From positions 1 through 64,000 of the forward strand of contig JAUJMQ010000010.1 of assembly GCA_030446775.1 (NCBI GenBank): a stretch of DNA of 64,000 nt. Reading direction: 5' to 3'. The DNA is from Egibacteraceae bacterium. GTDB lineage: Bacteria > Actinomycetota > Nitriliruptoria > Euzebyales > Egibacteraceae. Made by a program: the position numbers and the translations under genes. Of this stretch, positions 41,166 to 51,119 are shown one piece after another. Under the pieces are notes generated by a model. That model was given only the letters and a program-made list of their open reading frames with translations. It was not told the DNA's origin and searched no databases. Numbering within the stretch: position 1 is the first letter of the stretch; the number at the start of each line of letters is the position of its first letter.

Positions 41166-41217
41166 TAGCCCCAGCGGTCAGCCGTTCGTTGCGTCAGCCT
41201 TGTTACCCTCCCGCGCC

Positions 41218-42747
41218 GTGACAGCCCAGTTGTTCGCCACGCTCGCCGCCGCGGTCCCGCTCATCGTGCTCGGCTTGCTCGTGCTCCGGTCGGGCGTCCC
41301 ATTGGGCGTCAGTGCGTGGGGGATCGCGGGCGTCGCCGCCGTCCTCGCCTTGACCGTGTTCTCCCTGCCGCCCGAATGGCTGCTGCTCGCCGTGGCAAAG
41401 GGTGCTTGGACAGGGATCTGGATCCTCTTGCTCGTCATCCCCGCGCTCTTGCTGTTCCAGGTCGCCGAGTCCTCGACCGCTCTGGCGCGCCTCACCGACG
41501 AGCTCGGAAGCACCGCTCCAACCCCGGCACGCCGCCTCCTGCTCCTCGGATGGGTCTTCCCGTCGTTCCTGCAGGGCGTGGCGGGGTTCGGCACGCCTGT
41601 CGTCATGGCCGCGCCGATGCTGGCACGCAGCGGCGTGCCGCCCGTGGCCGCCGTCGCCGCCGTCCTCGTCGGGTACCACTGGTCGGTGACGTTTGGTTCG
41701 ATGGGTTCGTCGTTCTTCGTCGCAGCGGCGACGGCGCAGCTGACCGGCGCCGAGCTCGCGGCGTTCGCGGTGCGCAGCGCGCTGCTGCTGGCCGTTCATG
41801 GGCTCGCGGCTGGCCTGCTGCTCCTGCGTCGCGTCCCTGGCAGCTGGACCGGGGTGCTGCCGCAGGCCTTGACAATCGCCGCGGTGATGGGCGTCACGCT
41901 CGTCGCGACGGTCGCGGTGCAGCCGGCGCTGGGGTCGACAGCGGCGGGCCTGGCTGGCCTGTGCGCCGCCTTCGTGCTGCTCCCGACGGACGAGTCCTCG
42001 CACGCGTGGCGCCCGCTTTTGCTGGCGGCAGCGCCGTACCTGCTGCTGACCGGGCTGGTCGTCGTGGCGTTCGGAGTCCCGGTCGTGCGCGACATCGTCG
42101 AGCAAGTCCCCGCCGTCGCACCGTCGTTCCCCAGGACCGAAGCGGCGTTCGGCCACGTCAACCCCGCCGTCGACGCGCTGCAGCCGTTCCGGCCGCTGCT
42201 CCACGCCGGTGTCTACCTCGTGATCGCCGCAGGGTTCGCGGCCCTGCTGTACCGCCGCGTCGGGTGGTGGCCCGCAGGTACCGGCGCGGCGATCCGCACG
42301 TCGTGGCGCACCCGGTCGGCCACAGTCGCGACGTCGCTGCTCGGCTTGACCGTTCTTGCCTCCGTCATGGTCGACGCCGGGATGATCGAGGTGCTCGCGC
42401 AGGCCCTCAGCGCGGCGCTCGGCGTCGTGTACATCGCGGTCGCCCCGGCCGTCGGGGCGCTCGGGACGATCCTCACCGGCAGCACGACGGCCTCCAATGC
42501 GCTGCTCGCCCCGCTGCAGGCGGCGGCTGCCGTGCGGCTGGACGTCGCGGAGACGGCCCTGCTTGCCGGGCAGACCGTCGGCGGCAACGTCGGCAACGCG
42601 TGGACGCCGATCAACGCCGTGGTGGCCGCCGCCGCCGCGGGCGCCGCCGGGCAGGAGGGCGCCATCCTGCGCAGCGCGGCTCCCGACGTCGCGCTCCTGC
42701 TGCTTCTCGCCGTGGTCGGAACGATCGCGCTCGCCCTCTTCGGCTGA
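41218..42747 (+). CDS. L-lactate permease family (LctP) transporter
   Basis: A membrane protein of 509 aa with about 12-13 hydrophobic helices and the LctP-family blocks FLQGVAGFGTPVVMAAPML, VGYHWSVTFGSMGSSF and SNALLAPLQAAAA, plus TVGGNVGNAWTPINAVVA. Relatives import lactate, glycolate or similar small hydroxy acids with protons. The GTG at 41218 is taken over a TTG at 41200. Neither has a Shine-Dalgarno site. A candidate GntR operator and two hairpins precede it. It converges on the UGSC selenoprotein gene and may bring in the substrate of the surrounding catabolic genes. Confidence 0.88.
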   Translation: MTAQLFATLAAAVPLIVLGLLVLRSGVPLGVSAWGIAGVAAVLALTVFSLPPEWLLLAVAKGAWTGIWILLLVIPALLLFQVAESSTALARLTDELGSTAPTPARRLLLLGWVFPSFLQGVAGFGTPVVMAAPMLARSGVPPVAAVAAVLVGYHWSVTFGSMGSSFFVAAATAQLTGAELAAFAVRSALLLAVHGLAAGLLLLRRVPGSWTGVLPQALTIAAVMGVTLVATVAVQPALGSTAAGLAGLCAAFVLLPTDESSHAWRPLLLAAAPYLLLTGLVVVAFGVPVVRDIVEQVPAVAPSFPRTEAAFGHVNPAVDALQPFRPLLHAGVYLVIAAGFAALLYRRVGWWPAGTGAAIRTSWRTRSATVATSLLGLTVLASVMVDAGMIEVLAQALSAALGVVYIAVAPAVGALGTILTGSTTASNALLAPLQAAAAVRLDVAETALLAGQTVGGNVGNAWTPINAVVAAAAAGAAGQEGAILRSAAPDVALLLLLAVVGTIALALFG

Positions 42748-42874
42748 TCAGCTCCGCTCGACGAGGTCGACGGCGCACGCGACGTCGCCGCAGTCCGCGT
42801 CGAGGACCGCGACGCCGCGCTGGACCGCCTCCGCCTCGGGGGGACGTCTGCCCACCAGGACGGCCGCGATGCCT

Positions 42875-43372
42875 TCAGCGGCGCGGGGAGGCGACCGACG
42901 CGACCGCGGAGCGATCGAGCGCGGCAATCGGATGCGGGACCCAGACCGGCTCGTACTCGCTCATGCCCAGGATCGGCAACTGCTCGGCGACGCTTTGCAC
43001 GAAGGCGGTCGTCACGAGGAAGGCCGTGGGGATTCCGGCTGCTTCGAGCCGGGCGACGTCGTGCAGACCGCACGACACACACGAGCCTCAATCGCCGACG
43101 GCGGTCACCACCGCGTCGCTGGACGCCGCGAGCTCCGAGAGGTTCTGTGCGGTCGCGGGCCGCGAGAAGATCCGCTTCTCGAGCAGCGCCCCCGCGACGG
43201 CCCCCTCCGGTGCGAGCTCCGCGGCGACCATCTCGAGCAGGACGTTGGCGTTGCCCTTGCGGTTGTCCAGCAGGCCGAGCCGGCAGCCGGAAAGGTCCGT
43301 GCGCCGCGGCGCGAGCGTCAGCGCGTCGGCATCGCGCGCGTCGACCGGCGAGACGAGTGTGAGACGGTTCAT
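42875..43372 (-). CDS. UGSC-family selenoprotein (UGA at 43088-43090 read as selenocysteine)
   Basis: The frame starting at the ATG 43372 meets UGA as codon 95 and stays open to 42875. The sequence around it is AVVTAVGD-U-GSCVSCGLHDV, the motif that names the UGSC family. A bacterial SECIS-like hairpin begins 11 nt after the UGA (see 43058-43076). Without readthrough the protein would lose the motif and half its domain. The ATG overlaps the stop of the upstream GLPVVPP-motif protein gene. After PHPIAAL the frame ends early at 42875. A one-base shift at about 42885 would continue with AAEGIAAVLVG to a stop at 42748, so the true C-terminus may be longer. A thiol/selenol redox role is likely; the substrate is unknown. 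Confidence 0.85.
43058..43076 (-). promoter_or_regulatory. bacterial SECIS element
   Basis: In the mRNA, 11 nt after the UGA, a perfect 7-bp stem GUCGUGC / GCACGAC closes the loop GGUCU. The loop and the 11-nt spacing equal those of the E. coli fdhF SECIS as I recall it. The bulged U of fdhF is absent. Confidence 0.8.
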
Positions 43373-44430
43373 CAGCGGGCTCCTTGCGGGTCGAACGGAA
43401 GTGTGCTGGTGCGCGTGCCCCATCCGGGAATCACGAGCGAGTGCCGGCCGGCGCCCCCGGCCACGAAGACCTTGATGTCGTCGGGGGTGCGCGCCGCCGG
43501 CACGAGGGCGTCGGGGTCGTCACGTCGCACCCACCGCGCCCAGAAGTTGCGTTGGATGTCCCCGCCATACATCCCGCCGATCCGCAAGCGGCGCACGGGC
43601 AGCCGCGCGCGTTCATGCAGGTACTGCTGGACGTGCCGGCGCTCCCACCCGTGGTCGGCCACGATCCGCGCGTGCTCGATGCCGAGCACGACGACGTAGT
43701 CGCTGGCCAGGTACATGTTGTTATTGCCGAGCGTCGCCATCGTGTCCGCGACGGTGTCGAGCAGCGCCCATGGGTCGTTGGAACCGTGGTTGTTGACATT
43801 GTGGGGGGCTTCCGCGGCGAACACCGTGACCGCGCTCTCCTCGGGCCGCAAACCCGCGCTCGTGTGGAACGCCGGGAAGGGCGACTCCTCCTCGTTCTCT
43901 GCGAGGCAGTAGGTGAACTTCCCTGGGTGCCCAAAGGTCGCTTTATCCATGCCGGCGGGACGCGCACCGCCCAGGTTCGTCAGGACGAGGCGGACCGCAC
44001 GGCCGATTGTCGCGTTCGCCCGGTACCCCTGCCCCAGGCAGTTGTGGCCGCCGTTGATGTCGAGCAGGCGGCGCACGGGCCCGTTGAAGACGAGCAGCGG
44101 CGTCGCCACGTGCGTCGTGCACTGGACGCCGTGGAGTCCGACGCGCTCGTCGAGGAGCGCCTCGACGGCGGCGATGACGGCCGGCAGGTATTCCGGCAGG
44201 CACCCGGCCATGACGGCGTTCGCGGCGATCCGCTCGACGGTCGCGCGGCCCCACGCCGGCGGAATCTCGCCGACGAGCTCGTCGGGAGCGCGTCCGGAGG
44301 CCGCGACGTGCCGCTCGACGAGCTCGGGCAGCGGTGGAACGACGGGCAGTCCGTCGCTCCAGCCCTCGTCATAGCACAGCTCCATCGCGTCGAGCAGGGT
44401 CTCGACGTCATCGCGTTCGGCCGTGCTCAT
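43372..44430 (-). CDS. UGSC-associated protein of unknown function (GLPVVPP motif)
   Basis: A 352-aa soluble protein starting MSTAERDDVETLL, with the block ELCYDEGWSDGLPVVPPLP near residue 20. Later blocks include MAGCLPEYLPAVIAAVEAL, CTTHVATPLLVFNGPVRR, NCLGQGYRANATIGRAVRLV and AEAPHNVNNHGSNDPWALL. Proteins of this type are commonly found next to UGSC-family proteins, and no reaction has been assigned that I know of. The ATG at 44430 has GGGAGGGA upstream and overlaps the enoyl-CoA hydratase stop. Its own stop overlaps the selenoprotein start. The strict coupling suggests a two-component enzyme with the UGSC protein. Confidence 0.75.
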   Translation of the reverse strand: MSTAERDDVETLLDAMELCYDEGWSDGLPVVPPLPELVERHVAASGRAPDELVGEIPPAWGRATVERIAANAVMAGCLPEYLPAVIAAVEALLDERVGLHGVQCTTHVATPLLVFNGPVRRLLDINGGHNCLGQGYRANATIGRAVRLVLTNLGGARPAGMDKATFGHPGKFTYCLAENEEESPFPAFHTSAGLRPEESAVTVFAAEAPHNVNNHGSNDPWALLDTVADTMATLGNNNMYLASDYVVVLGIEHARIVADHGWERRHVQQYLHERARLPVRRLRIGGMYGGDIQRNFWARWVRRDDPDALVPAARTPDDIKVFVAGGAGRHSLVIPGWGTRTSTLPFDPQGAR

Positions 44431-45218
44431 CGTCCCTCCCACACCGGTGCGCGCCGTTCGAAGTACGCGCGCTCCGCCTCCCGATGGTCGCGCGTCTCCC
44501 ACAGGCGTGCGAACAGCGCCGCCTGGGCCTGGACGTCGTCGCCGAGGGCCAGCGCCTCCTTCACCCCCCGCACGGCGAGCGGCGCGTTGGCGCTGATCTC
44601 GCCCGCCAGCCGGTGCGCTGCGGCGGATGCCTCTCCAGGCGCGACGACAAGGTCGGCGAGTCCGGTTCGCTCGGCCTCTTCTGCGGTGATGGACGCCGCC
44701 GTCGCCATGATCCGCACCGCGCGCGAGCGCCCGACGGTCCGGACGAGCCGTTCAGCCCCGCCCCATCCGGGCACCACTCCCAGGCGTGCCTGCGGGAGGC
44801 TGAGCTGCACCTGTTCCTCGATGACGCGCAGGTCGCAGGCGAGGGCGAGCTCCAGACCCCCGCCCAGCGCCGTGCCGTTGATGGCTGCGATGGTGATCGC
44901 CGGCAGGTCCTCCAGCCGCGACAGCATCCGCTGCATCAGCAGCGATGTCTCGCGTGCCGCCGCCCCCGTGTCCAGCGCCCGGTAGTCCTTGAGGTCCCCG
45001 CCCGTGCAGAAGAACCGAGTGCCGGCCGAGGTCACGACGAGGGCGAGCAGCGACGGGTCGTCGCTCAAGCGGCGCAGTGCGTCGTCGAGCGCACGCCCTG
45101 TCGCGCGGTCGATCGCGTTGCCCGCGTGCTCGCGATCGACGACGAGGCTGGCGACGGCCTCGTCGCGTTCGAGGCGGAAGCCGGCGGCTCCGTCGACGGT
45201 CGGCGCTGCCGCCGTCAC
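44427..45218 (-). CDS. enoyl-CoA hydratase/isomerase family protein
   Basis: A 263-aa crotonase-fold protein: TRFFCTGGDLKDY and INGTALGGGLELALACDLRV form the oxyanion hole, followed by LSLPQARLGVVPGWGGAERLV. The first expected acidic residue is not in the usual place, so hydratase activity is not certain. Isomerase, hydrolase or decarboxylase are options in this superfamily. The GTG at 45218 overlaps the maleate-isomerase-like gene, and its stop overlaps the GLPVVPP-motif gene. Confidence 0.88.
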   Translation of the reverse strand: MTAAAPTVDGAAGFRLERDEAVASLVVDREHAGNAIDRATGRALDDALRRLSDDPSLLALVVTSAGTRFFCTGGDLKDYRALDTGAAARETSLLMQRMLSRLEDLPAITIAAINGTALGGGLELALACDLRVIEEQVQLSLPQARLGVVPGWGGAERLVRTVGRSRAVRIMATAASITAEEAERTGLADLVVAPGEASAAAHRLAGEISANAPLAVRGVKEALALGDDVQAQAALFARLWETRDHREAERAYFERRAPVWEGR

Positions 45219-45979
45219 GCGGCGATCCGTCCCGCTCCCGACAGCAGGCGCCCCGCGTTGGGCACCACCGGCTCCAGGTGGAGAACGTCGAGGATCCGAC
45301 GGACCGTCGCGGTCCCGGCGGTCACGACGGGCAGCCCCACCTCGTCCTCGACGACCTGGACCGCCGACAGCGACGGCATCTGCACGCACGCGGACAGGAC
45401 GAGCGCGTCGGCGCCCGACAGGTCCATCCCGCGCACGATCCCAGGCAGCTCGTGTGGGTTGAGGCAGCCGACCTCGAGGTTGTCGGACACCTCTAGGCTC
45501 ACCGACTCGGTCACCTCGACGCCCTCGGCTTCGATGTAGTCGACGACGAGCTTGGTGAGCGGCTTCATATAGGGCGCGACGACGGCGACGCGTCGCGCAC
45601 CCATCTCCTGGCACGCCTCGACGAGGGCGCCGGCGCTGGACACGACGGGAGCCTTCGCGCCATTCTCGGCGGCGACGCGCTCGAGGCGCTCCTGGGATTC
45701 GCGGTGGTAGCCGTGCCCCTGCGCCATGATCGCGACGAGGCAGGCGTACGCCATCACGTCGACGTGGGCGTCTGAAAGCTCGGCGGCGCAGCGGTCGCTG
45801 TCGCGGTCCATCCTCGCCAGCTCGTCGGCGGTCACCTGTTGCATCCGCATCCGGCTGGAGTGGAACGTGAACCGCTCCTGGCGGATCTCCTCACGGCGGT
45901 GCAGCATCCCTGGGATCTCGGTCTCCATCGTGACGTTGCTGCTCGGGACGATCAGTCCGACGCGGTACGGGGTTGGCAT
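45215..45979 (-). CDS. maleate cis-trans isomerase / Asp-Glu racemase superfamily protein
   Basis: A 254-aa protein with two candidate catalytic Cys: one in DVMAYACLVAIMAQG (about residue 80) and one in LVLSACVQMPSLS (about residue 196). It also has the N-terminal GLIVPSSNVTMETEIP strand and VVSSAGALVEACQEMGARRVAVVAPYM. These fit maleate isomerases and arylmalonate decarboxylases, which act on dicarboxylic acids by Cys-based chemistry. The ATG at 45979 follows AAGGAGTG. It is the first enzyme gene after livF, 22 nt away. The dicarboxylate link suggests the imported substrate is an organic acid. Confidence 0.85.
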   Translation of the reverse strand: MPTPYRVGLIVPSSNVTMETEIPGMLHRREEIRQERFTFHSSRMRMQQVTADELARMDRDSDRCAAELSDAHVDVMAYACLVAIMAQGHGYHRESQERLERVAAENGAKAPVVSSAGALVEACQEMGARRVAVVAPYMKPLTKLVVDYIEAEGVEVTESVSLEVSDNLEVGCLNPHELPGIVRGMDLSGADALVLSACVQMPSLSAVQVVEDEVGLPVVTAGTATVRRILDVLHLEPVVPNAGRLLSGAGRIAA

Positions 45980-46001
45980 GGTCACTCCTTCCGACGTGCG
46001 C

Positions 46002-46712
46002 TCAGATGCCGAGGTAGGCAGCGCGAATGCTCTCGTCGGCCAGCAACTCGCTCGCCGGCCCGTACTGTGCGATCGCTCCCGTCTCGATGACGTACCCACG
46101 ATCGGCCGTCTCCAGTGCCTTCTTCAGGTTCTGCTCCACGAGCAGGATCGTCAGCCCCTCGTCGCGCAGGCGCTGGACGTTGGCGAAGACCTGCTGGACC
46201 AGGATCGGTGCCAGGCCGAGGCTCGGCTCGTCGAACATGAGCAGACGGGGCTTGCTCATGAGCGCGCGCCCGATGGCGCACATCTGCTGCTCCCCGCCCG
46301 ACATGGTGCCGGCGAGCTGGCGGCGGCGCTCGGCCAGGCGTGGGAACAGCGTGTAGACGTACCGCAGAGTCGCGACACGGTCCTTGCGCGCGCGAGGGCT
46401 GAACGCGCCGAGCTCCAGGTTCTCCTCGACGGTCATCTGCGGCCACAGCTCGCGTCCCTCCGGGACGAGGGCGATGCCCATGCCGGGTCGCTCGCCGGCG
46501 GGAACCCCCTTCAACGAGGTGCCCTCGAAGGCGACCTCCCCCTTCGCCAGCGGCCGGATGCCGGCGATCGCGCGCAGGGTCGTCGTCTTGCCTGCACCGT
46601 TGGACCCGACGATCGTGACGATCTCGCCCTGCTCGACGGTCAGGCTCACTCCGAACAGCGCCTGCGCGTCCCCGTAGAAGACCTCGATGTCCTGCACCTC
46701 GAGAACGCTCAC
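46002..46712 (-). CDS. livF: branched-chain amino-acid-type ABC transporter ATPase LivF
   Basis: A 236-aa ATPase: Walker A GSNGAGKTT, Q-loop in IALVPEGRELWPQMTVEENL, signature TMSGGEQQM, Walker B PRLLMFDEPSLGLAP and H-region VEQNLKKAL. The RELWPQMT variant is typical of LivF. The GTG at 46712 overlaps the livG stop. It powers the HAAT-family importer encoded upstream. Substrates of such systems include amides, organic acids and aromatic acids as well as Leu/Ile/Val. Confidence 0.93.
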   Translation of the reverse strand: MSVLEVQDIEVFYGDAQALFGVSLTVEQGEIVTIVGSNGAGKTTTLRAIAGIRPLAKGEVAFEGTSLKGVPAGERPGMGIALVPEGRELWPQMTVEENLELGAFSPRARKDRVATLRYVYTLFPRLAERRRQLAGTMSGGEQQMCAIGRALMSKPRLLMFDEPSLGLAPILVQQVFANVQRLRDEGLTILLVEQNLKKALETADRGYVIETGAIAQYGPASELLADESIRAAYLGI

Positions 46713-47473
46713 GCCTGCTCCTGCTCGGGCGCGGGGACCGCGACCTCTTCCTTGCCGAGGTAGGCCTCGATGACCTGCGGGTCGTTGGCGACCTCGGCCG
46801 GCGATCCCTCGGCGATCTTCTCCCCGTGGTCGAGGACCATCACGCGGTCGGACACGCCCATGACCGCGGGCATCACGTGCTCGATCATGATGATCGACAC
46901 GCCGCGGTCGCGGATCTCGCGGATCAGTCCGACGAGCATCTGCGCCTCGGCCGGGTTGAGCCCGGCGATGACCTCGTCGAGCAGGAGCACGCGCGGCTGC
47001 GTCGCGAGCGCGCGCGCCAGCTCGACGCGCTTGCGCCCGGCCAGCGTCAGCGAACCCGGCAGCCCGTGCGCGCGAGGCGTCAGACGCACGAACTCCAACA
47101 ACTCGTCGGTTTCCTCCGCGTCGTTGTGTCCGCGCCGCTGCGACAGCTTCGTCCCGTAGTACCTGCCGACCAGGACGTTCTCCCGGACCGTCAGGTTCGT
47201 GAACGGGCGCACGATCTGATGCGTTCGGCAAATGCCCTTGCGCACGGCGTGGTGCGGCGGGTGGCCACTGATCACCTCGCCGTCGAGCAGGATCTCGCCC
47301 GCGGTCGGCGGAATCGACGAAGCCGCCACACTGAACAGTGTCGTCTTGCCGGCGCCGTTGGGGCCGATCAGCCCCAGGATCTCCCCCTCGTCGAGGTGGA
47401 AGTCCACGTCGTCGACGGCCTTGAGCCCTCCGAAGTGCCTGCTGACCCCACGTCCTTCAAGCAGCGCCGTCAT
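46709..47473 (-). CDS. livG: branched-chain amino-acid-type ABC transporter ATPase LivG
   Basis: A 254-aa ATPase: Walker A GPNGAGKTTLF, the LivG-type ICRTHQIVRPFTNLTVRENV segment, signature LTLAGRKRVELARAL (a variant of LSGGQ, with AGRKR as often in LivG), Walker B RVLLLDEVIAGLNPAE, and IEHVMPAVMGVSDRVMVLDHG. It ends in an acidic PAPEQEQA tail. The ATG overlaps the livM stop and its stop overlaps livF. Confidence 0.93.
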   Translation of the reverse strand: MTALLEGRGVSRHFGGLKAVDDVDFHLDEGEILGLIGPNGAGKTTLFSVAASSIPPTAGEILLDGEVISGHPPHHAVRKGICRTHQIVRPFTNLTVRENVLVGRYYGTKLSQRRGHNDAEETDELLEFVRLTPRAHGLPGSLTLAGRKRVELARALATQPRVLLLDEVIAGLNPAEAQMLVGLIREIRDRGVSIIMIEHVMPAVMGVSDRVMVLDHGEKIAEGSPAEVANDPQVIEAYLGKEEVAVPAPEQEQA

Positions 47474-48546
47474 GTCTTCTCCTCCACCATGCCCGGTGCC
47501 TCCTCCTCCTCCTGCTCCGAGGTCACGGCAGGGCCCGCGGCTGCGGATGATCCGACGCCACCGCCGGCGACCGGCCCCCGCGGCCGGTAGCCGGCGCCGC
47601 GCGCGATCCGCAGGATCAGTCCCGACAAGCCGAGCGGCTCGAAGAGGATGATCAGGATGATCAGGCCGCCGTACAGGCCGAGGTACAGCTCTGGGTACGA
47701 GGCGATGAGGAACTCCTGGAGGATCACAAAGATCACCGCGCCCAGCACCGGCCCGAGGATCGTGCCGATCCCGCCGATGACGGTCATGAGAACGAAAGAG
47801 ATCGAGCGTTGAAAGCCGAACATGTCGCCCGGCTCGATGAAGGAGAAGTACGACGCGTAGAACGCCCCGGCGATCCCGACGACCGTCCCCGACAGGAAGA
47901 GCATGAGGTCCTGGTGGTGCGTCGCGTTCACCCCGACGTCGCCGGCAGCCTCGACGTCGGACTTGATCGCGAGCAACCCGAGCCCGATGCGCGACTTGCG
48001 CAGGTAGTACGAGACGGCAACGGCGGCCGCCATGAAGTACAGGCCGTACCAGTACAGCGAGTACTTGTCGACCCCGCCCTGGATCGGCAGCGAGACCCCC
48101 GACGCGCCACCCGTGAACGGCTCCCAGTACGTCATGATCAGCCGGGTCGCCTCCCCGACTCCGATCGTCGCGATCGCGAAGTAGGGGCCACGCAAGCGCA
48201 ACGTGGGATGGCCCCACAGCAGGGCGAACACCCCGGCGACGAGCCCGCCGACGATCCAGCCCACGAAGAAGGGCATGCCGGTCGCAAGAAGAATCCGCGC
48301 CGACACGAACCCGCCGACGCCGAACATCGCCGCGTGGCCGAAGCTGATCTGCCCGACGTACCCGCCGACCCAGTTCCAGGCCAGGGCCCCGGAGACGAAC
48401 ATGAACGTCAGGCCCATGAGATTGTGCAGGTACGCGCCGGCTCCGAGGACGAAGGGTGCGAGGTACAGCGCGGCGAACCCGACGACGAACGTCACGAGCG
48501 CCCACGGGGGAAGCCACTGCGGCAGCCGCTGCCGCAGCGTGCTCAC
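47470..48546 (-). CDS. livM: branched-chain amino-acid-type ABC transporter permease LivM
   Basis: A 358-aa permease with about nine membrane helices and family blocks WVGGYVGQISFGHAAMFGVGG, LRLRGPYFAIATIGVGE and the EAA-like SDVEAAGDVGVN. The C-terminus is an extra acidic tail (SEQEEEEAPGMVEEKT) that is not in the membrane. The GTG at 48546 overlaps the livH stop; its stop overlaps livG. Confidence 0.93.
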   Translation of the reverse strand: MSTLRQRLPQWLPPWALVTFVVGFAALYLAPFVLGAGAYLHNLMGLTFMFVSGALAWNWVGGYVGQISFGHAAMFGVGGFVSARILLATGMPFFVGWIVGGLVAGVFALLWGHPTLRLRGPYFAIATIGVGEATRLIMTYWEPFTGGASGVSLPIQGGVDKYSLYWYGLYFMAAAVAVSYYLRKSRIGLGLLAIKSDVEAAGDVGVNATHHQDLMLFLSGTVVGIAGAFYASYFSFIEPGDMFGFQRSISFVLMTVIGGIGTILGPVLGAVIFVILQEFLIASYPELYLGLYGGLIILIILFEPLGLSGLILRIARGAGYRPRGPVAGGGVGSSAAAGPAVTSEQEEEEAPGMVEEKT

Positions 48547-49418
48547 GACAGGACCTTCTGCCCGAACAGCCCGCCAGGGCGGAACACCAGGACGAGCACC
48601 AGCAGCACGAAACCGACCGCCGCGGTGAGGAACGACGGCAGGACGAGGATCGAGAAGACCTCCACCGTCGCCAGCACGAAGGCACCCAGGGCGATCCCGA
48701 CGACGCTGCCGAGTCCCCCCAGCACCACGATGACAAAGCTCTTGAGCAGCTCGACGGCGCCGGCGCCGGGGTTGAAGGCGAACAGCGTCGACAGCAGGAG
48801 GCCGGCCAGACCGGCGAGCGCCGTTCCGATCGCGAACGTGAGCGTGTAGATGCGCTCGACGTCGATGCCGACGAGGGTGCAGCTGTCCGGGTTCTGCGCC
48901 ACGGCACGGATCGCCTTCCCGACGTAGGTGCGCGTGAGCAGCACGTGGAGGACCGCAAGCGTCAGCAGCCCGATGACGAAGACGACGAGGCGGTTGAGCG
49001 GGACGATGACGCCGAGGAGAGACAATCCCCGCGTGGAGTACGACGTCCGGATCGCCTGGTCGTTGCCGCTGAACAGCAGGTAGGCGACGTTCTGCATGAC
49101 CAACCACACGCCGAACAGCAGCAGCAGCGACTGCACGCCGCCGGCGGCGCCGCGCGGCAGGAAGCGGACCAGTCCCTTGTACAGGCCGACGCCGAACAGG
49201 AACGCCAGCGGCACCACGATCGGGATCGACAGGTACGGGTCCATCCCGAAGCGGGTGAACAGCACCCACGTCGTGTACGCGCCGGCCATGATCACACCGC
49301 CGTGCGCGAGGTTGACGATCCGCAGGACCCCATAGATCAGGCCGAGGCCGAAGGCCATCGCGGCGTACAGCCCGGCCAGCAGGACTGCGGAGACGACTAG
49401 GGACAGGAACTGGTCCAC
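48543..49418 (-). CDS. livH: branched-chain amino-acid-type ABC transporter permease LivH
   Basis: A 291-aa permease with about eight helices. Characteristic blocks are FGLGLIYGVLRIVNLAHGG, YVGKAIRAVAQNPDSCTLVGID (EAA loop) and VVLGGLGSVVGIALGAFVLA. The start is the GTG at 49418 (MDQFLSLVV), 10 nt after the binding-protein stop, with GGGGCGG ahead. It forms the membrane pore with LivM. Confidence 0.93.
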   Translation of the reverse strand: MDQFLSLVVSAVLLAGLYAAMAFGLGLIYGVLRIVNLAHGGVIMAGAYTTWVLFTRFGMDPYLSIPIVVPLAFLFGVGLYKGLVRFLPRGAAGGVQSLLLLFGVWLVMQNVAYLLFSGNDQAIRTSYSTRGLSLLGVIVPLNRLVVFVIGLLTLAVLHVLLTRTYVGKAIRAVAQNPDSCTLVGIDVERIYTLTFAIGTALAGLAGLLLSTLFAFNPGAGAVELLKSFVIVVLGGLGSVVGIALGAFVLATVEVFSILVLPSFLTAAVGFVLLVLVLVFRPGGLFGQKVLS

Positions 49419-49428
49419 GGCCGCCCCG

Positions 49429-50724
49429 TCAGGCCTGGTCGCAGTTCGGGTTCGGGGCCACGCCTTCGCCCGTGGCCGTGTCCTCGGGGTAGATGATCGG
49501 CGACTCGCCTTCCGGCATGTTCTGCTGGACGACGAACGGGTACTGCGCCTGGAACCCGCTTTCCTCGGGGAACGTCAGGCTGCCGCCGGGCAGCAGTGAC
49601 TCCATCTCGAGGTTCGCCAGCGCGTCGCGGACGGCCTCGGGCTCCACCGACCCGGCGTTCTGGATCGCCGTGAACAGGGCACGCGCGGCCTCGTAGCTGA
49701 CCGCGTGGTACCACTCCGGCTCCTTGTCGTACTTCGCCGTGAACGCGTCAACGAACTCCTTGTTGATGCCCTCGTCGCCGAGTTGCGCGTTCCACCACAC
49801 CGCGGACAGGATGTAGGAGACGGCCTCCTCGCCCAGTGCGTCGCGCGCGTCGGGCTCGGGTCCACGCGCGCCATAGGTGATGACGTCGTGGCACAGGCCG
49901 GCCGTCGTGTACTGGCGCTGCATCGTGATGTAGTCGGGCAGGTGCGCGTCGACCATGAACAGGTCGGCGCCTGACGCCTTGACCTCACTGAGCAGCGCGG
50001 AAAAGTCGCGGCCGTTGAGCTCGAACGACTCGTCCATGACGATCTCGTAGTCGCCCTCGCTGGCCTCGACGAATTCGGTGATGCCCTTCTGGAAGTCCTT
50101 GCCGTGCGAGGTGTTCTCCCACACCACGGCGATCTTCGCGGGTTTCGGGAGGTTGCCCGCCTCCTGCTGCTCTTCGATCCATTCCATCTCGGTCTCGGCG
50201 AGCAGCTCGATCGGCGCGAGGTTGCCGAAGATCCACTGGTAACCACGCTCGTAGATGCTCGTCGCCGCGCCGCCGCCATTGACGTACGGTATCTGGTTCT
50301 GCTCCGCGGCCGTGCTCTGCGCCTCCACGAGTGAGGTCGAGTACGTCCCGAGCAGGGCGTTGACATTGTCCTGGGTGATCAGCCGCTCGGCGAGGCTTAC
50401 CGCCGTCGCCTGGTTGGTGGTGTCGTCCAGGAGCTCGAGTTGGACCGGGACGGTCTGGTCGCCGACCTGCAGGCCGCCGTCTTCGTTCTCGAGCTCGAAC
50501 GCGAGCTCGTAGCCCTCCCTGTAGAACCCGCCGATGCGCGACTCCTCCCCCGTCAACGGAAGCGTCGCGCCGATCACGATCTCGCCGGGCAGGTTGGCGG
50601 CGCCGTCGCCTTCGCTGCCGGCGGCGGCTGGCTCTTCTGGCCCCTGTCCGGGGGCGCAGGCGGAGAGCAGCAGCAGGGCCAGCACGGCCAAGACGTGCCG
50701 TTTCCTCGTCAGATGGTTGCGCAC
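49429..50724 (-). CDS. livK: ABC transporter substrate-binding lipoprotein (amino-acid/amide type)
   Basis: A 431-aa type-I periplasmic-binding protein anchored as a lipoprotein: lipobox LLSAC after a hydrophobic stretch (VLAVLALLL), then EIVIGATLPLTGEESRIGG, LINQ-like ERLITQDNVNALLGTYSTS and WIFGNLAPIELLAET. The GTG at 50724 follows GAGAGGA. It is the first gene of the nine-gene run. A candidate GntR operator overlaps its promoter region. The ligand cannot be told from sequence. Confidence 0.92.
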   Translation of the reverse strand: MRNHLTRKRHVLAVLALLLLSACAPGQGPEEPAAAGSEGDGAANLPGEIVIGATLPLTGEESRIGGFYREGYELAFELENEDGGLQVGDQTVPVQLELLDDTTNQATAVSLAERLITQDNVNALLGTYSTSLVEAQSTAAEQNQIPYVNGGGAATSIYERGYQWIFGNLAPIELLAETEMEWIEEQQEAGNLPKPAKIAVVWENTSHGKDFQKGITEFVEASEGDYEIVMDESFELNGRDFSALLSEVKASGADLFMVDAHLPDYITMQRQYTTAGLCHDVITYGARGPEPDARDALGEEAVSYILSAVWWNAQLGDEGINKEFVDAFTAKYDKEPEWYHAVSYEAARALFTAIQNAGSVEPEAVRDALANLEMESLLPGGSLTFPEESGFQAQYPFVVQQNMPEGESPIIYPEDTATGEGVAPNPNCDQA

Positions 50725-51119
50725 GAGCCTGATCCTCTCACTCGGTGAAAATGGACTGGGGGACGCCCGGTGGCTGCCGCACTGAGAGTAAGGGTGCGCC
50801 GGGATGGCGGGTGCGTACACGATGAGCATGGCGCTGTCCCTTTGCAACCACTTGTTTGTCGGGGTTGTCGCCTCGTCTCCGCGACGTCTCGCGACGTGGA
50901 CTGACCAGTCAACCACTCCTGCCCGCAGCAGTCGTCCGTTTGCCCGAAAATCATCGGTGGGCGGCTGCCGCGAGCGTCCCTCGACGGGCTGGACGGCCCC
51001 GAGTGCGTGAGGCGGCGGCGGCGGCGGCTCCTGCGATGGGCGCTCGAGGCCGCGTGGGCCCCGTTGACGTAGGCTCGCCTCGTTGTCCGACGAGCGCACG
51101 CGACGTACTGGAGGCGCCC
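50725..51119. other. divergent control region of the liv operon and the GntR operon
   Basis: About 395 bp without a gene. It contains operator site 2 (50895-50917). No exact -35/-10 pair was found for either direction; TTGACT on the minus strand lies inside the operator itself. Confidence 0.5.
50895..50917 (-). promoter_or_regulatory. candidate GntR operator, site 2 (liv/gntR divergent region)
   Basis: Fits GTGGNTSANTGGYCNNNCCA with core TGGTCAGTCCA. It is about 170 nt upstream of livK and 200 nt upstream of the GntR gene, so it could serve both, including autoregulation. Confidence 0.6.

Follow-up and report, generated by a model that had tools for sequence, protein, structure and literature searches.

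A UGSC-family gene with an in-frame UGA, a covarying SECIS hairpin and a regular partner gene in an Egibacteraceae genome

A 64,000-nucleotide stretch of contig JAUJMQ010000010.1 from an Egibacteraceae bacterium (referred to here as the window) very probably encodes, on its minus strand from 43372 to 42875, a selenocysteine-containing member of the UGSC protein family. The frame opens at ATG 43372, meets UGA at codon 95, runs on for 70 sense codons and stops at the TGA at 42877-42875; selenocysteine (Sec) would be inserted at codon 95 in place of termination. Translation of the minus strand therefore bears out the frame originally predicted, with its UGA inside GD-U-GSCVSCG. The wider context of the UGA is VGD-U-GSCVSCGLHD. 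Residues 93-98, GDUGSC, carry the family motif [GA]D-U-G-S/A-C, and in an alignment of UGSC members D94, C95 (the Sec position), G96 and C98 are invariant. The UGSC profile PF24696 matches the product with 146.3 bits against a cut-off of 25, and the as-assembled sequence scores 119.7-120.6 bits against a cut-off of 125 with NF041046, UGSC family (seleno)protein. As this curated NCBI model covers UGSC (seleno)proteins, the original prediction went too far in claiming that an ordinary annotation would split the gene or miss it. Coordinates are collected in Table 1.

UGSC-containing proteins were described by Zhang and Gladyshev in 2008 from GOS metagenomes (PMC2398784); with 255 of them in GOS, UGSC is one of the commoner selenoprotein families in aquatic metagenomes. 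In 2026 a review (PMC13188914) still lists UGSC among selenoproteins with largely uncharacterised functions. Published work thus already covers the family, the Sec and the fusion to another domain, and the gene in the window is a further member. It shares with the known family (PF24696/NF041046) a full-length match, the UGSC motif, the position of Sec and the partner or fusion domain, and differs in having a frame break near the C-terminus and a tail of about 30 residues that has no counterpart. What the present analysis adds is the statistics of association with the partner and the link to GrdB.

Table 1. Features of the UGSC locus in the window
Feature	Coordinates	Strand	Basis or remarks
UGSC-family selenoprotein gene, as assembled	42875..43372	-	165 residues, Sec95; PF24696 1.3e-42, NF041046 1e-34
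In-frame UGA, codon 95, read as selenocysteine (predicted)	43088..43090	-	25/25 class matches; Cys codon in 4 phylum homologs
SECIS hairpin, 7-bp stem and loop GGTCT	43058..43076	-	covariation; absent from Cys homologs; fdhF-like 18-nt UGA-to-loop spacing
C-terminal extension to stop 42748-42750, after a probable frame break at about 42878-42898	42748..42898	-	phase switch, profile gains
Partner protein gene, 352 aa	43372..44430	-	no Pfam/NCBIfam model; directly upstream of UGSC; fused in L044, L048, L049, L050
Enoyl-CoA hydratase/isomerase family gene	44427..45200	-	PF00378 4.4e-49; stop overlaps partner start (ATGA)
Arylmalonate decarboxylase/EutA-type gene	45215..46099	-	PF17645 5.3e-18; TIGR02990 1.3e-23
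Branched-chain-amino-acid-type ABC importer: 2 ATPases, 2 permeases, binding protein	46002..51099	-	same strand; likely same operon

A hairpin begins 11 nt past the UGA, with arms GTCGTGC (43076-43070) and GCACGAC (43064-43058) enclosing the loop GGTCT (43069-43065). The stem is a perfect, continuous 7 bp and the loop lies 18 nt from the UGA, as had been claimed. A hairpin just 3′ of the UGA with a G early in its loop, as found here, has the form of a bacterial SECIS element. The E. coli fdhF SECIS has the same GGUCU loop, the same following GCAC and the same 18-nt spacing, but its stem contains a bulged U that is absent from the window's hairpin; most relatives have the loop AGUNU rather than GGUCU. 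SelB carrying Sec-tRNA(Sec) would bind the hairpin directly after codon 95. Hairpin strength was rejected as stand-alone evidence. The folding z-score is -0.8 (-0.4 for E. coli fdhF), and the exact geometry, found at one of the 1146 UGA triplets in the window, is expected 0.32 times by chance; a relaxed geometry gives 11 matches. An Rfam search of the window gave no match. The original prediction held that motif, readthrough and hairpin agree independently. The comparison described below supports their agreement, but "independently" was an overstatement, because the hairpin alone would be expected about 0.3 times per window. Since a hairpin in a single sequence is only modest evidence, the case for an encoded Sec must rest on comparison.

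Among 66 genomes of the class, 14 contain a UGSC match above cut-off, with 25 matches in total including the window's gene. Every one of the 25 has exactly one in-frame UGA, at the same codon, and UGSC homologs run on for about 75-90 codons beyond it. In close pairs the codons after the UGA gave dN 0 and dS 0.21 (L032/L033), 0.04 and 0.38 (L041/L042), and 0.11 and 0.44 (L034/L037); by this measure they are under purifying selection. Across the 25 sequences 92.9% of stem cells are paired, and the stem covariation score is 0.218 compared with 0.086 in shuffles, none of 500 shuffles reaching the observed value. Pairing is destroyed when the hairpin arms are slid against each other in the alignment. 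Compensatory changes were seen from C-G to G-C in five sequences and from G-C to A-U in two. The C-G to G-C change affects the loop-closing pair and converts a TGC codon (Cys) to TGG (Trp), with the opposite arm altered to match. At the level of aligned sequences, hairpin conservation far exceeds chance once relatives are compared.

In the wider phylum, 13 homologs with UGA keep 6 or 7 of the 7 stem pairs, whereas all four homologs with a Cys codon keep only 1-4. The alignment of Sec and Cys homologs, which the original prediction had proposed, thus separates Sec homologs with a covarying hairpin from Cys homologs lacking it, a comparison that serves as a clean, naturally occurring control for a bacterial SECIS. 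The same prediction had named three outcomes as refuting it; what was found instead is that the sel genes are present, the homologs continue and the hairpin is conserved. Translation past the UGA in the UGSC family is supported as well as computation allows. Several UGSC copies, split and fused, occur in two genomes, G057 (L025, L043, L046, L049, L050) and contig C21 of G045 (L031, L044, L047); the three copies in G045 are grouped within 10 kb. A search of viral contigs found no relative.

The source genome is a 2.4 Mb draft, 59.8% complete. The proposed search for selA, selB, selC and selD found all four, with selB broken as assembled. The tRNA-Sec scores 69 bits and has the anticodon UCA, selA and selB are adjacent on contig C5, and selD (L021:1501-2529) has an in-frame UGA of its own, in FSHGAG-U-ACK, so that SelD is itself a predicted selenoprotein. 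Of the 14 class genomes with UGSC, 13 have selA; the exception is 71% complete. The assembled selB (L063:3741-5637, corresponding to G000:C5:88740-90636) changes frame near L063:4815, and its P-loop reads GHVDRGQAP, without the lysine of the GHVDHGKS found in 13 relatives. Most selB differences, such as the P-loop changes of H to R and K to Q, raise G+C. Because of this, and because the UGSC gene of this draft is frame-broken as well, we lean towards consensus error rather than decay as the explanation; if the damage is real, Sec insertion in the source organism could be impaired. We infer that Sec is inserted in the organism's own cells.

The original prediction placed a one-base shift near 42885 and extended the C-terminus to 42748. 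The shift itself is supported by the sequence. In three-phase G+C the coding signal passes into the following frame around 42,890, and reading across the break raises the score of a family profile built without the window sequence from 170.0 to 175.6 bits (+5.6), this leave-one-out profile then reaching position 185 of 189. With NF041046 the score rises to 125.5 bits, just above the cut-off, covering positions 2-146 of 147. The extension is a different matter, as only the first 12-15 or so residues past the break have counterparts in the family; the last 30 or so, up to 42748, have a coding-like composition and no counterpart in homologs. An LctP/L-lactate permease family gene (41200-42747, plus strand) converges on the UGSC gene, its stop abutting the end of the extended frame.

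Directly upstream of UGSC lies the partner gene, whose stop overlaps the UGSC start in TGATG, the A of ATG 43372 being common to both. At the class loci, relatives of the partner are either directly upstream of UGSC or fused to the C-terminus of UGSC. The partner is adjacent or fused in all 14 class genomes with UGSC and present in just one of the other 52. It also adjoins UGSC homologs of the Cys type. One contig (G020:C272), in a genome with no detected UGSC, carries four partner matches. The 2008 paper reports fusion of UGSC to a domain termed 'Unknown_1' (PMC2398784), which is probably the partner described here. Searches with Pfam and NCBIfam matched no model to the partner, it bears no resemblance to the Grd and Prd subunit models, and PDB sequence searches with UGSC and the partner gave no useful match. 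Its predicted structure has a pLDDT of 37, and none of the profile, PDB and structure-prediction attempts gave a recognisable fold or function. The UGSC product and this co-translated upstream protein may form a two-part unit.

The same-strand genes further upstream suggest catabolism of an imported small molecule, and the ABC importer is likely to belong to the same operon as the UGSC gene. Neighbours at other UGSC loci are mixed (importer, amidohydrolase, P450, SDR, hydantoinase), and no constant neighbour besides the partner was found across them.

UGSC members were compared with models of the GrdB type (TIGR01917, NF040794, NF040795, TIGR04483) and with Pfam PF07355 (GRDB). TIGR01917, glycine reductase selenoprotein B, was matched by 12 of 15 members (best 1.4e-7) and the sarcosine GrdF model by 11 of 15; matches fall on the GrdB, GrdF, GrdH and PrdB models. 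None of the 15 matched PF07355, and the TIGR01917 score of 20 bits is far from the membership cut-off of 602. Alignment of the UGSC and GRDB profiles with hhalign gave an E-value of 1.4e-4 and a probability of 52%, with similarity over about 50 residues around Sec, and all seven GRDB proteins scored above reversed controls. Like UGSC, GrdB, GrdF, GrdH and PrdB (component B of the glycine, sarcosine, betaine and D-proline reductases) have Sec after a strand, and the alignable 50 or so residues share U-G-[ST]-x-x-x-C followed by an ExAGIPTA-like stretch. Around Sec, Actinomycetota GRDB proteins read ILTST-U-GTGTRCGSTLAKELERAGIPTALL and UGSC reads VTAVGD-U-GSCVSCGLHDVARLEAAGIPTAFL. In contrast to the GrdB-type proteins, UGSC is a stand-alone protein of about 170 aa. 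On these sequence comparisons it is likely to be related to the Sec module of GrdB without belonging to GRDB; in the UGSC literature, as far as it was examined, this link is not stated. Seven Actinomycetota ORFs of the GRDB family (L086-L092) all end at a UGA that precedes GTGTR[CS], and the reading frame carries on past it. They are GrdB/PrdB-type proteins with Sec, and one (L091) comes from the source organism's own family.

The predicted UGSC fold is Rossmann-like, with repeated beta-alpha units and Sec following core strand three, at low confidence (pLDDT 62); a Foldseek search of the PDB with this model gave no significant match. In such an alpha/beta domain Sec95 would stand at the start of a helix. 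Its selenolate would act as nucleophile and reduce a small organic substrate to which the partner binds, while Cys98 of the UxxC motif would be the resolving residue. In this it would resemble the Sec module of GrdB-type reductases. We infer these roles for Cys98 and the partner by analogy. A selenolate-dependent reductase is proposed because of the known role of the Sec in GrdB and PrdB, and a mechanism of this kind, with UGSC acting together with the partner, is a reasonable possibility, although we stop short of calling it probable.

UGSC might instead be a thioredoxin-like thiol/selenol oxidoreductase, a general redox protein with Sec inserted just the same. The UxxC motif fits such a role, and a thioredoxin-like fold was proposed for UGSC in 2008 (PMC2398784). 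We consider this unlikely, as the arrangement in the low-confidence model, with its beta-alpha repeat and Sec after the third core strand, is not that of thioredoxin, and the sequence matches lead to GrdB, GrdF, GrdH and PrdB while the Pfam search of UGSC members found no thioredoxin family.

Two further explanations concern the UGA and its decoding. That it is a genuine stop, or was introduced in assembly, leaving two ORFs or a pseudogene, might be argued from the second frame break in the gene, the damaged selB and a hairpin geometry that chance could supply. This is highly improbable, and at the level of the family already refuted, given the UGA kept in 24 other class loci, the purifying selection downstream of it and the covarying hairpin. 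Somewhat more credible, though still unlikely, is that Sec is encoded in a lineage that is losing Sec decoding, with selB and UGSC decaying in the source genome. The frame breaks in both genes and the missing P-loop lysine would be explained in this way; against it, selA, selC and selD appear intact, the neighbouring genes are open, the G+C-raising differences in selB fit consensus error in a GC-rich draft, and the genome is only 60% complete.

We return to a Sec-dependent reductase as the preferred reading of UGSC function. More tentatively than the selenolate mechanism itself, we propose that UGSC and its partner are the two subunits of a substrate reductase that depends on Sec and descends from the Sec module of GrdB; this reductase would stand apart from the Grd and Prd complexes and serve uptake-linked catabolism in Actinomycetota. 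The near-perfect association with the partner, together with the link to GrdB, allows UGSC, so far an orphan redox protein, to be treated as part of a two-component reductase, a hypothesis open to test.
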